This document shows, in pieces, positions 527 through 9,273 of a DNA stretch of 64,000 nucleotides. The DNA is from Candidatus Roizmanbacteria bacterium (GTDB lineage Bacteria > Patescibacteriota > Microgenomatia > UBA1406 > GWC2-37-13). Both the position numbers and the translations under genes were made by a program. Within the stretch, counting starts at the first letter, position 1, and each line of letters starts with the position of its first letter. The notes under the pieces are model-generated. The model saw nothing but the letters and a program-made list of their open reading frames with translations. It was not told the DNA's origin and ran no database searches. The stretch spans positions 124,001 through 188,000 of the forward strand of contig JAAZNM010000007.1 of NCBI GenBank assembly GCA_012798265.1, in the 5' to 3' direction.

Positions 527-811
527 TTAAGTGGCTTCAACTACCTTTTTGGTAACCTTACCGTGACTTCTAAAAGTTCTTGTCGGGGCAAACTCTCCCA
601 AACGATGACTTATCATAGCCTCAGAAACGAATATTTCTATAAACTTCCTCCCGTTATGGACGGCGATTCTGTGTCCGACAAACTCCGGAGCCACCTGACT
701 ATCCCTGGCCCATGTTTTAATCGCCGATCTGTCAGAACCTGATTTTTGTCTGATTATCTTTTTTAACAAATTTTGGTCTACGTAAGGACCTTTTTTTAAT
801 GATCTACTCAT
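527..811 (-). CDS. rpsS: 30S ribosomal protein S19 (at an unusual operon position)
   Basis: uS19 of the 30S head, contacting S13 and the A-site finger. The start is the ATG giving MSRSLKKGPYVDQ; a longer in-frame reading would run into rpsN. Diagnostic blocks are IKTWARDS, PEFVGH, IAVHNGRKF and KLGEFAPTRTF-like (here RLGEFAPTRTF). About 94 residues, normal. In the conserved S10 operon this gene lies between rplB and rplV, yet here rplV follows rplB directly and rpsS is found between rpsN and rpsH. It looks intact, so a relocation rather than a duplicate remnant. Confidence 0.97.
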   Translation of the reverse strand: MSRSLKKGPYVDQNLLKKIIRQKSGSDRSAIKTWARDSQVAPEFVGHRIAVHNGRKFIEIFVSEAMISHRLGEFAPTRTFRSHGKVTKKVVEAT

Positions 812-815
812 ATTG

Positions 816-1001
816 TCACCAGGAAACTTTTCTAACTCCGGGTATCTCACCCTGTAAGGCTTTTTCTCTGAAACAAATCCTGCACATGCCAAACCTTCTC
901 ATATATCCCCTTGCCCGACCGCAAAAAGGACAACGATTATGATGGCGGACAGCGTATTTCTGCTTTTTCAAAAATTTAACCTGAGATGATTTTTTTGCCA
1001 T
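816..1001 (-). CDS. rpsN: 30S ribosomal protein S14, zinc-binding type
   Basis: uS14 of the 30S head. It is the short 61-residue, zinc-binding form, with Cys pairs CPFC (residues 25-28) and CRIC (residues 40-43) that hold one zinc. The C-terminal end G-x-x-K-x-S-W is typical. It starts 8 bases after the rplE stop and is followed by rpsS with a 4-base gap, so translation is probably coupled. Confidence 0.96.
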
Positions 1002-5919: not shown

Positions 5920-6588
5920 TTAATAACTCCTTATTTCCAAGAGACCGTTTTTACCTCCGGGAACAACTCCTTTAACGATTAAACCGTCTTCTTTCACCTC
6001 TATCACCTGAAGATTTTTAACAGTGACTCTTTCTCCTCCCATTCGTCCGGCCATACGTTTTCCTTTATAGATCCGTCCGGGAGTCGTGGTCTGACCGATG
6101 GAGCCAGGGGCTCTTTCCCGATCGGACTGACCGTGAGTTCTGTACCCTCCGGCAAAATGATGTCTTTTAACAACTCCCTGAAAACCTTTACCCTTAGATA
6201 TGCCTGACACATCGACTAAGTCGCCTTTCTTAAACAAAGAGCCGGGGTTTATGAATTGTCCCGGACTCAGTTTTTCGCTACCGAAGGTCAAGATCTTTTT
6301 ACCGTTTTCGTCAACGACTGAAAATTTACCCCTAAACCTATCGAGACGAAACTCTTTTAAAAAACGAAGCGGGTTTTTTATCCCCGCTTTCGTCAACTCT
6401 CCTTGGATTGATTTTTTGTTTTTTTTTGTTTGGCCGAAACCAAGTTTAACGGCGCAATATTTGTCGGTATTAATAATCTTCACTACGTGACATGAAGAAG
6501 TCCTTATAAAAGTAGTGGGTATCCTCTCACCCAAATCATTGAATTTTTGCGATTGAACTGATTTTTCTCCAAGAATTATGCCTGCCAT
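5920..6588 (-). CDS. rplC: 50S ribosomal protein L3
   Basis: uL3, an early-assembly protein reaching the peptidyl-transferase centre. The start is the ATG giving MAGIILGEKSVQSQ; the in-frame codons upstream lie in the attenuator leader. About 222 residues. The core pattern is DVSGISKGKGFQGVVKRH, then GGYRTHGQSD and PGSIGQ, then the C-terminal GRMGGERVTVKNL. First gene of its transcript, preceded by its own promoter and an intrinsic terminator ending just before the ATG. Confidence 0.97.
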   Translation of the reverse strand: MAGIILGEKSVQSQKFNDLGERIPTTFIRTSSCHVVKIINTDKYCAVKLGFGQTKKNKKSIQGELTKAGIKNPLRFLKEFRLDRFRGKFSVVDENGKKILTFGSEKLSPGQFINPGSLFKKGDLVDVSGISKGKGFQGVVKRHHFAGGYRTHGQSDRERAPGSIGQTTTPGRIYKGKRMAGRMGGERVTVKNLQVIEVKEDGLIVKGVVPGGKNGLLEIRSY

Positions 6589-6589
6589 A

Positions 6590-6621
6590 TTAAAACAAAA
6601 AAATAGCCCCAGATTGGGGCT
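6590..6621 (-). terminator. Intrinsic terminator in the rplC leader (attenuator)
   Basis: On the minus strand a six-base-pair GC-rich stem (AGCCCC / GGGGCT, 6605-6621) with a five-base loop is followed by a U-rich run. It lies between the rplC promoter and the rplC start, and the U-run ends only a base or two before the ATG. It also lies downstream of rpsJ, so it could end tuf-rpsJ read-through as well as attenuate the new transcript. Confidence 0.8.
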
Positions 6622-6644
6622 TTTATCCGAAAAAACCAATCCGG
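6609..6644 (-). promoter_or_regulatory. Candidate antiterminator stem competing with the rplC terminator
   Basis: In the minus-strand RNA, CCGGAUUGG (6644-6636) can pair over nine positions, with one G-U, to CCAAUCUGG (6617-6609). The second arm spans the loop and two bases of each terminator strand, so the two structures exclude each other. This is the geometry of transcription attenuation or a riboswitch-like leader. The ligand, if any, is unknown; a ribosomal protein such as L4 is one possibility by analogy with known r-protein leaders. Confidence 0.6.
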
Positions 6645-6658
6645 AAAAATTAAACTAT

Positions 6659-6680
6659 AATTTTCCCAAACAGGAAAATT
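6659..6680 (-). promoter_or_regulatory. Leader hairpin upstream of the rplC attenuator
   Basis: A perfect eight-base-pair inverted repeat (AATTTTCC / GGAAAATT) with a six-base loop, starting only a few bases after the predicted transcription start. It may be a protein-binding stem in the r-protein leader or simply a 5' stabilising hairpin. Confidence 0.5.
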
Positions 6681-6693
6681 AACATTGCTGTAA

Positions 6694-6722
6694 ATTATAT
6701 AATATTTGCCGTCTTAGGTCAA
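6694..6722 (-). promoter_or_regulatory. Sigma-70 type promoter for the rplC operon
   Basis: TTGACC (-35, 6717-6722), a 17-base spacer and a perfect TATAAT (-10, 6694-6699) on the minus strand. Predicted start is near 6687, giving a leader of about 100 nt before rplC. One of the best-matched promoters in the window, as expected for ribosomal genes. It makes the rplC operon independent of tuf-rpsJ. Confidence 0.85.
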
Positions 6723-6739
6723 GGATAAATTGTTACCAC

Positions 6740-7048
6740 CTACATCTTTACCTCGACCTCAACTCCAGCAGGAAGTTCAAGATGCATTAAGGAATCTATA
6801 GTTTGATTCGTGGGATTGACGACATCAATTAATCTTTTATGGATTTTTAAGCCAAAGTGTTCACGGGCATCCTTATCAATAAACGAGGACTTGTTGACTA
6901 CATAAGTTTCTTGTTTTGTCGGTAAGGGAATCGGACCAATTACGGAAGCACCGGTTCTTATAGCCGAATCTATTATTTTCTGACAGGTGTCATCTATCAG
7001 ATGATGGTCATAAGACTTGAGTTTTATTCTTATCCTTCCCTTTGGCAT
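6740..7048 (-). CDS. rpsJ: 30S ribosomal protein S10
   Basis: uS10, a 30S head protein that also acts as NusE in transcription antitermination. 102 residues: N-terminal RIRIKLKSYDHHLID, the loop SAIRTGASVIGPIPLPT, and the C-terminal HLELPAGVEVEVKM. It lies 33 bases after tuf and is separated from rplC by the promoter/attenuator region, so it may be transcribed mainly with tuf. Confidence 0.97.
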   Translation of the reverse strand: MPKGRIRIKLKSYDHHLIDDTCQKIIDSAIRTGASVIGPIPLPTKQETYVVNKSSFIDKDAREHFGLKIHKRLIDVVNPTNQTIDSLMHLELPAGVEVEVKM

Positions 7049-7081: not shown

Positions 7082-8266
7082 TTATTTTAATATTTTGGAA
7101 ACGACTCCGGCTCCGACGGTGTGGCCACCTTCGCGAATGGCAAATTTCAATCCTTCTTCCAAAGCTACCGGATAAATTAACTTACCAGTAACTTTTATGT
7201 TGTCTCCGGGCATAACCATCTCGACCCCGGCGGGTAAAGTAACCTCACCTGTAACATCGGTGGTTTTGATATAGAATTGGGGACGGTAACCTTTGAAGAA
7301 AGGAGTGTGTCGACCGCCTTCTTCTTTTGTCAAAACGTATATTTGGGCTTCAAATTCTGTGTGGGGAGTAATCGTCCCGGGTTTAGCCACTACCTGACCT
7401 CTTTGAACATCGTCTTTTTCAATGCCTCTAAGGAGAAGACCGACATTGTCTCCCGCCCTTGTCTCGTCAAGAGTCTTTCTGAACATTTCCAGACCGGTAA
7501 CAACGGTTTTTTTGGTTGCTTTTAAACCAACAATCTCGACCTCTTCATTGACCTTCAAAGTACCTCTTTCGACCCTTCCGGTAACAACCGTACCGCGACC
7601 TTGGATGGTAAAGACATCCTCGATTGCCATAAGGAACGGCTGGTCGACCGGTCTTTTCGGTTCAGGAACATACTCATCAACCGTCTTCATCAACTCTTCG
7701 ATGGTCTTAATAGCTTCCGGATCATCCTGGAGAGCTTTTAAAGCCGAACCTCTTATGACTGGGATCGTATCTCCTGGAAACTCATATTTTTTTAACAGGT
7801 CTCTAACTTCCATTTCAACCAAATCAAGTATCTCTTTATCCTGAACCATATCGACCTTGTTTAAAAAGACGACTATGGCCGGGACATTGACTTGATGAGC
7901 CAATAAAATATGTTCTCTTGTCTGAGGCATTGGGCCGTCTGGAGCTGATACGACCAGAATAGCTCCATCCATCTGGGCAGCTCCGGTAATCATATTCTTG
8001 ATATAATCGGCATGGCCAGGAGCATCAATGTGGGCGTAATGTCTTTTGTCGGTTTCGTACTCTGAGTGATGAAGATTGATGGTAACGCCTCTCGCTTTTT
8101 CTTCCGGAGCCTTGTCAATCTCTTCGTATTTCAGAAACTGGGCCATTCCTTTTTTGGAGAGGACGTAATGAATTGCGGACGTCAAAGTTGTTTTACCATG
8201 ATCAACATGACCGATGGTTCCAATATTTAAATGAGGTTTGTTTCTTTGAAAGACTCCTTGTGCCAT
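7082..8266 (-). CDS. tuf: Elongation factor Tu
   Basis: GTPase that delivers aminoacyl-tRNA to the ribosome. 394 residues, full length. G1 is GHVDHGKT (residues 19-26), G3 is DAPG (81-84), and G4 is NKVD (136-139). Domains II and III follow, with [15 protein letters not shown] and [10 protein letters not shown]. The G3 motif has Ala where E. coli has Cys (D-C-P-G). No fusA, rpsL or rpsG precedes it; the genes upstream run the other way, so tuf heads its own transcript with rpsJ. Confidence 0.98.
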
Positions 8267-8301
8267 ATGATTTTTATAGAATTAAAATTAATAAAAAAAA
8301 T

Positions 8302-8329
8302 ATTATAACCTAAAGATAAACAAATGCAA
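8302..8329 (-). promoter_or_regulatory. tuf promoter
   Basis: Minus strand TTGCAT (8324-8329), 16-base spacer, TATAAT (8302-8307). The start site would be near 8295, giving a leader of about 28 nt, one of the few promoters here not placed right next to its start codon. Confidence 0.75.
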
Positions 8330-8375
8330 CTGCTCTTTTAAAAAAGGAGTTGATTTCTTTAGGATATTACTTTAC

Positions 8376-8381
8376 TATAAT
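8376..8381 (+). promoter_or_regulatory. -10 box of a leaderless-type promoter for the 8389 gene
   Basis: TATAAT ending seven bases before the ATG at 8389, so transcription should begin about one base before the start codon. No good -35 at standard spacing (TTGATT is 20 bases away). Confidence 0.6.
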
Positions 8382-8388
8382 TCTTAGT

Positions 8389-9273
8389 ATGAAAAAAGTC
8401 AAGACCTTTTTTCATGTTTTTGTCAATAGTTTGCTCCCGCAGGCTAACTATTATAAAAAAATATTGAAGACGCATTTTGATTTTTCCCTTCGTTATTTTA
8501 TTGGTCTGATAATAATATTAAATGTATTATTTGTAATTAATATATACTCCAGATACAGTTACCCAACAATCGGCCGTTTGACAGACAGCGCCATAAAAGG
8601 TTTGAAGAATATCCCCGAAGATCTTCAAATCTATCTGAACAAAGGTCTTTTTTTTACCTCCTATTCTCGCCCGTATTTTTTTTGGATAGACGATCAAAAA
8701 TCCATAAAGCTGCTTTTTGTTATAGATGAAACCGCTTATCCTCAAAAAATTAACACCTACGGAGCAAGCGCCATGATAACTTCCAAAGAAGTCGTCATAG
8801 GAATTAATAAGAAAGAGCCTATCACTCTGCCGCTTAACGATTATTGGCCGGTCAAGATGATTATCGACCATCAAGAGATCACCAAGATAACCGATTCGCT
8901 TGTCCAGTTTAGGCAGTGGTTGCCCGTAATCTATACGGCCCTGTTTTTGGTCTTATTGATTGCCATTCCGTTAATTTCGCTTCTGACCATTGGTTGTTAT
9001 CTGATTGCCGCCTGCCTCGTCATATATTTTGTTTTCAGTATGTTTATCCGCAAAAAAATCCATTTCAAAAAAGTCGTCCAGATATCTTTTCATTCGTTTA
9101 CTTTGCCTTTGATTCTGGACTACGCGACCATAATTTTCCAACCTTTTAACTGGTTGGGTAACTTTACGCAGTTTACCGTTAAACCTTCTTTCCTCTTGCC
9201 TTTTCTGTTTTTTTTGATGATCATTGTCTTCGTCTTTGCCGGAGCCTACGAAGCGTATCTTGACCAGGACTAA
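8389..9273 (+). CDS. DUF1189-like integral membrane protein
   Basis: 294 residues. The N-terminus MKKVKTFFHVFVNSLLP, followed by a TM helix (about 30-50), an extracytoplasmic region of about 130 residues, and four or so TM helices at the C-terminus, resembles DUF1189 membrane proteins (resemblance from memory, not a search). Function unknown. I use the ATG at 8389 because the -10 box sits seven bases upstream; a TTG 13 codons earlier would lie upstream of that box. Divergent from tuf, and ends 17 bases before the helicase gene. Confidence 0.75.
   Translation: MKKVKTFFHVFVNSLLPQANYYKKILKTHFDFSLRYFIGLIIILNVLFVINIYSRYSYPTIGRLTDSAIKGLKNIPEDLQIYLNKGLFFTSYSRPYFFWIDDQKSIKLLFVIDETAYPQKINTYGASAMITSKEVVIGINKKEPITLPLNDYWPVKMIIDHQEITKITDSLVQFRQWLPVIYTALFLVLLIAIPLISLLTIGCYLIAACLVIYFVFSMFIRKKIHFKKVVQISFHSFTLPLILDYATIIFQPFNWLGNFTQFTVKPSFLLPFLFFLMIIVFVFAGAYEAYLDQD

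Follow-up and report, generated by a model that had tools for sequence, protein, structure and literature searches.

The window, i.e. the whole 64,000-nucleotide stretch of DNA that was analyzed, lies on contig C8 of G000, a 0.95 Mb genome in 8 contigs from the Candidate Phyla Radiation. The gene order on the minus strand is tuf, rpsJ, a 151-bp gap, and rplC-rplD-rplW-rplB-rplV-rpsC and onward. The gene for S19, rpsS (MSRSLKKGPYVDQ...), is displaced to window positions 527–892 (minus strand), between rpsN and rpsH and not between rplB and rplV, while the rest of the cluster is canonical. The features around the gap are listed below in the direction of transcription.

7082–8266, minus strand: tuf, which precedes rpsJ
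6740–7048, minus strand: rpsJ (S10), the upstream gene, outside the putatively attenuated unit
6694–6722, minus strand: promoter, TTGACC (6722–6717), 17-nt spacer, TATAAT (6699–6694)
6650–6685, minus strand: predicted leader ORF (uORF) of 11 codons, ATG TTA ATT TTC CTG TTT GGG AAA ATT ATA GTT TAA, MLIFLFGKIIV*
within 6659–6680, minus strand: hairpin 1, AATTTTCC-TGTTT-GGGAAAATT, inside the uORF
6636–6671, minus strand: alternative (pre-emptor) hairpin in which UUUGGGAAAAUUAU..., from the 3' part of the uORF, pairs with AUUUUUCCGGA and would sequester the antiterminator strand
6636–6644, minus strand: antiterminator 5' strand CCGGAUUGG (= CCGGATTGG), CC[G/A]GAUUGG in relatives
6597–6621, minus strand: intrinsic terminator AGCCCC-AAUCU-GGGGCU (AGCCCCAATCTGGGGCT, 6621–6605) with U-run 6603–6597
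6609–6617, minus strand: antiterminator 3' strand CCAAUCUGG (= CCAATCTGG), common to the 5' arm and loop of the terminator
5920–6588, minus strand: rplC (L3), first gene of the putatively controlled cluster, ATG at 6588 (start set by homology)

The promoter, already recognized in the initial annotation, matches the consensus at 11 of 12 positions and is the top promoter-like site across 15 kb. Most leaders of the family repeat the TATAAT box and a −35 box of the TTGA type. rplC itself has no Shine-Dalgarno sequence, and an SD-like motif precedes it in only 2 of 64 relatives. The rplC ATG in most relatives is located within 10–30 nt of the terminator U-run. In the tuf leader (8266–8402), inspected by eye, a comparable attenuator was not seen.

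Competing RNA structures and their conservation

The whole leader has a folding energy of −29.9 kcal/mol, compared with −16.7 ± 2.8 kcal/mol for dinucleotide shuffles (z = −4.8). Hairpin 1, the CCGGAUUGG strand, the terminator, and the rplC ATG are all located where the initial annotation had placed them, and the nine pairs between CCGGAUUGG and CCAAUCUGG, one of them G-U, form as it described. Hairpin 1 is stable in the window (−9.2 kcal/mol, z = −3.6); across 46 relatives its mean z is −1.5, and its sequence differs between genera. The terminator and the antiterminator share the CCAAUCUGG strand and are thus mutually exclusive, as had been claimed. In an alignment of 45 leaders, 94% of the antiterminator cells pair with the terminator loop, compared with 13–57% in slid registers, and the pairing collapses on a slide of a single column. 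The median stabilities of the antiterminator (−11.7 kcal/mol) and the terminator (−11.1 kcal/mol) are nearly equal. RNAfold favors the terminator at equilibrium in the full-length leader of the window, and therefore the antiterminator must win kinetically.

A third competitor, absent from the initial annotation, is the pre-emptor hairpin (UUUGGGAAAAUUAU with AGUUUAAUUUUUCCGGA; 14 bp plus 2), which reaches −15.1 kcal/mol in nascent RNA of 60–64 nt. Since this hairpin is strong in the window (z = −4.9) and on average weakly favored among relatives (mean z = −0.9), it is perhaps species-specific, and it was rejected as a general element of the leader.

rplC was located in 69 of 72 genomes of the same family, and its upstream DNA could be read at 62 loci. 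In 52 of the 62, rplC is preceded by the antiterminator strand together with the terminator: a strand resembling CC[AG]GATTGG (degenerate in a few) is followed, after 15–26 nt, by CCCCAATCTGGGG with a T-run. That both elements are kept supports the initial proposal that the rplC leader contains a conserved attenuator of transcription, and judging from the aligned leaders the competing stems are not due to chance. Five of the ten exceptions are scattered, and the other five (L022, L024, L034, L040, and L041) form a subclade within a single genus that has lost the antiterminator and the terminator. In these five, the T-run directly follows hairpin 1, and a leaderless uORF spans the hairpin and enters rplC out of frame, an arrangement that is possibly an attenuator of reversed logic.

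Covariation among related rplC leaders, which the initial annotation named as a check on the stems, is found in the terminator and not in the antiterminator. The outer pairs of the terminator have nine cells in which both sides are changed, compared with 1.9 ± 1.2 in shuffles, none of 500 reaching that number. For the antiterminator, no excess over shuffles is observed within the family; its columns barely vary, so that the test is uninformative. The strand is nearly invariant while its flanks vary freely, and this near-invariance exceeds what simple pairing needs.

The leader ORF

The initial annotation also did not mention the uORF. In the window, its ATG is located 8 nt past the −10 box, its stop codon ends 5 nt short of the antiterminator strand, and it overlaps hairpin 1. 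These positions are maintained in relatives. The ATG lies 7–10 nt past the −10 box in 51 of 55 leaders (shuffles, 7.2 ± 2.5, maximum 15), and in 48 of 53 the distance from the stop codon to the antiterminator strand downstream is −2 to 12 nt (shuffles, 6.9 ± 2.3, maximum 16), for the most part 1–12 nt. With one leader per genus, the stop is so placed in 28 of 30 (4.2 ± 1.9, maximum 11 in 2000 shuffles), and 29 of 30 genera have a short ORF at the leader start, many more than expected from shuffles. Some members of g31 have the ATG shifted or missing.

The peptides, on the other hand, are not maintained. Fifty of the 53 are distinct, Met is the only residue common to all, and no control codon for a regulating amino acid is shared among them. 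In L014, a one-base deletion alters the frame and the peptide, and the stop codon is still 5 nt from the antiterminator. A YGGGA motif in hairpin 1 is read in all three uORF frames. No third-position excess was found in the uORFs of one genus, a comparison in which one member was misregistered, and thus there is no evidence of selection at the peptide level. As far as sequence comparison can tell, selection keeps the start position, the stop position, and the openness of the uORF, and not its peptide.

Since the ATG sits where transcription normally begins, 7–10 nt past the −10 box, the mRNA is probably leaderless or nearly so, with a 5' UTR of 0–4 nt when the start is assumed from the −10 box. 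Starts of the leaderless type are common in the same genome, where the pattern TTGA-N-TATAAT-N6-10-ATG occurs at 16 sites (L234–L249), versus one for the reversed pattern. Most of the other sites with such promoters open real genes, apparently including rplU, rpsO, rpmE, and tpiA (triosephosphate isomerase), judged by their N-terminal sequences. Polycysteine leaderless short ORFs of mycobacteria, a leaderless version of the trp-type attenuator, were reportedly described by Canestrari in 2020. Leaderless AUGs are bound directly by 70S ribosomes (PMC9031893).

Leaders in sister families, the class, and the phylum

Both sister families sampled carry the same element before rplC, also in genomes in which rpsJ is no longer the neighboring gene. 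The terminator stem of family f3 is changed in a compensatory manner to AGACCC/GGGTCT, and in one member (L151) the antiterminator is changed along with the terminator, CAGATGGG pairing with CCCAGTCTG with one bulge. In a covariance-model search of 373 genomes of the class, the matches are nearly confined to the order of the window; matches with E below 1e-4 occur only in this order, and weaker ones in families f25 and f24 also lie before rplC. The leaders of the window type that were read in the order precede rplC, although they were collected via rplC; the covariance-model search, which is independent of rplC, gives one match per genome, and within the order nearly all of these are at the rplC site.

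In distant families, the antiterminator pairing is replaced by other complementary sequences. Families f25, f9/f42, f18, f31, f13, and f40 of the Microgenomatia have rplC leaders of unrelated sequence with the same plan, as represented by ACGGATTTTGGG with CCCCGATCCG in f25, CTCGGATGAG with CTCAACCGAG in f9/f42 (CTTGGAA with TTCCAAG in L209), and CTACATAGT with ACTATGTGG in f18, where the uORF stop lies inside the antiterminator strand. A competing helix is detected at p ≤ 0.05 in 15 of 32 leaders of other families in the class, and the uORF is likewise placed in 20 of 30 leaders outside the order, a count that relies on visual choice of the −10 boxes and on a wide window for the stop. The evidence from these families for a common plan is accordingly weaker.

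Twenty genomes from other classes of the phylum, inspected by eye, have rplC leaders of other kinds, with no evident plan of a leaderless uORF plus an antiterminator. Four of these leaders (L260, L261, L262, and L266) share a conserved sequence, roughly CGGGGTA..AAGTC..GAAACTA..TGTCGGAAA, which looks like an undescribed ribosomal protein leader (r-leader); L262 and L266 match nothing in Rfam. Conserved elements are also found in the rplC leaders of L265 and L269 (TTTATTTAAGCCCGTCAA.A.GATTGGCGGAAACAAATAAATTCATA), of L218, L227, and L228 (GGTGGGACACCTGAA..AAGGAGTCCTGC), and of L219, L221, and L226 (TTTCAGTAGAT.G.GCGTC..GATACG..ATACTGAGTGAG). The members of these three groups that were searched have no Rfam match.

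Proposed mechanism, rival readings, and known systems

From the promoter, the position of the uORF, the complementarity, and their conservation, which can be read directly from the DNA, we infer the following course of events. Transcription would begin at or just before the uORF ATG. When no ribosome is loaded, hairpin 1 would close and CCGGAUUGG would pair with the emerging CCAAUCUGG, allowing readthrough into rplC and the downstream genes. A translating ribosome that reaches the uORF stop would mask the first bases of CCGGAUUGG; in a masking model with the stop codon in the A site, the median antiterminator stability is weakened from −11.7 to about −7 kcal/mol. If the ribosome is still at an earlier point of the uORF, segment 2 would, in the window species, likewise be released and could sequester CCGGAUUGG. 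Once the antiterminator is blocked, the GC-rich hairpin and the U-run would form, and transcription would end before rplC. The terminator would be favored in either of the ribosome-occupied states of the uORF, and the empty leader would favor hairpin 1 and the antiterminator. Ample ribosomes would lead to termination and to less ribosomal protein, a negative feedback from translation capacity. Since neither a sequence nor a control codon is common to the peptides, what is sensed is most likely the capacity for translation as such, meaning the ribosomes that can initiate at a leaderless AUG. We consider the rplC leader, with a probability of about 0.6, to be a transcription attenuator of the leader-peptide type that controls the rplC operon, lacks control codons, and probably reads ribosome availability.

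The element sits before an r-protein operon, and r-leaders are known for many r-proteins (PMC7247131), which brings up autogenous control: a protein encoded in the operon, such as L4 or L3, would bind hairpin 1 or the conserved AAUCU/GAUUGG sequences and favor the terminator, by analogy with the E. coli S10 operon, with the uORF being incidental. The surplus conservation of the antiterminator and terminator-loop sequence beyond the demands of pairing would fit a binding site, and so would [CU]GGGA in hairpin 1, which occurs in differing uORF frames and hence belongs to the RNA level. However, this motif is found in only 24 of 55 leaders, the sequence and length of hairpin 1 vary freely between genera, and the fixed start and stop of the uORF are left unexplained. 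Short scans against 23S rRNA with CCAAUCUGG, CC[AG]GAUUGG, and UUCGGGAA gave no convincing mimicry, only matches with one mismatch, which are numerous at that length and at the chance level. Conservation of the kind seen at protein-binding sites is not apparent in any part of the leader, and the feedback binding of L3 or L4 envisaged in the initial annotation is not supported in that form; we regard autogenous control as unlikely. A reading of opposite sign, in which uORF translation aids readthrough by opening hairpins or blocking Rho and couples ribosome synthesis positively to growth, has a parallel in Bacillus subtilis rplJL, where the leader peptide increases expression, presumably because Rho is blocked (PMC4538822). 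The uORF of the g10 subclade, spanning the sole remaining hairpin and the T-run, would also agree with it. In nearly all leaders of the main type, however, the uORF stop directly precedes the antiterminator, so that a ribosome there would hinder the antiterminator and not the terminator, making this reading quite improbable.

Even less probable are two further readings. The anatomy resembles that of trp, and the uORFs are rich in Leu, Ile, and Phe (each in about three quarters), so that starvation stalling at particular codons might give antitermination as in amino-acid-specific attenuation. No amino acid is present in all uORFs, though; Leu, Ile, and Phe are expected in AU-rich RNA, the peptides of sister families (MPIDILVIGIRAQ, MTKVVSAGKEGV, and MELSKLSHKQV) speak against such stalling, and the target genes are not biosynthetic. 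Equally doubtful is a plain terminator or insulator with constitutive weak readthrough and no regulation. The hairpin and U-run are of the standard type and may also stop transcripts from tuf-rpsJ, but they sit downstream of their own strong promoter, they are retained in sister-family leaders without rpsJ upstream, and a conserved complementary strand and uORF make little sense for an insulator.

Most of what is known about how bacteria adjust r-protein synthesis to the supply of ribosomes comes from r-proteins binding to the mRNAs that encode them. An attenuator with a uORF and without control codons would, if the preferred reading of ribosome availability is true, let the ribosome itself and not one of its proteins report abundance, and it would provide a concrete, testable mechanism of gene regulation in the Candidate Phyla Radiation. 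More tentatively, at somewhat less than even odds in our estimate, the whole class Microgenomatia may share such a sensor, in which a peptide-independent leaderless uORF gauges the supply of ribosomes able to initiate at a 5'-terminal AUG and sets the largest r-protein operon by attenuation, in place of feedback by r-protein binding, with a common geometry but RNA sequences that evolved differently in each family.

The leader of the E. coli S10 operon is subject to L4-mediated attenuation. The rplC leader resembles it and other r-leaders (PMC7247131) in placing attenuation before an r-protein cluster that contains rplC. It differs in starting at rplC and not at rpsJ, in having a uORF, and in having neither an evident conserved structure like a protein site nor an Rfam match. 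No Rfam family reaches its gathering score in a search with the leader, in agreement with the initial view that the structure is not a described one; weak matches to Phe_leader and His_leader (E of 3–4) were judged to be chance. No description of transcription attenuation in Patescibacteria or the Candidate Phyla Radiation was found in the open-access literature, and our claim of novelty, which is based on that literature, is provisional. In the list of new r-leaders by Eckert and Weinberg, the only leader with rplC as the first gene is an L4 candidate in Archaeoglobi (PMC7247131), rated borderline by its authors (Table 1 therein). It is likewise a candidate regulatory RNA directly before rplC-rplD-rplW-rplB, but it is archaeal, and nothing in that table points to a uORF.

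B. subtilis rplJL also combines an r-protein operon with an antiterminator, a terminator, and a leader peptide. There, L10(L12)4 binds an anti-antiterminator, the SD of the leader peptide lies inside the 3' arm of the terminator, and the peptide raises expression (PMC4538822), whereas the rplC uORF precedes the antiterminator and, placed there, should lower expression. The trp-type attenuators (E. coli trp, S. meliloti trpL, and M. tuberculosis ilvB1NC) share with the rplC leader a short ORF at the 5' end, an antiterminator and a terminator that exclude each other, and a stop codon placed for the terminating ribosome to mask the antiterminator. The same logic of masking at the stop codon is described for ilvB1NC (PMC13236596), and the leaderless start has a precedent in the trp leader peptide of S. 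meliloti trpL (PMC7298713). In contrast to these systems, the rplC leader of the uncultivated Microgenomatia precedes an r-protein operon and not an amino-acid operon, has no control codons, and does not conserve its peptide. By this analogy, the rplC leader would work like a trp-type attenuator without being an amino-acid attenuator.
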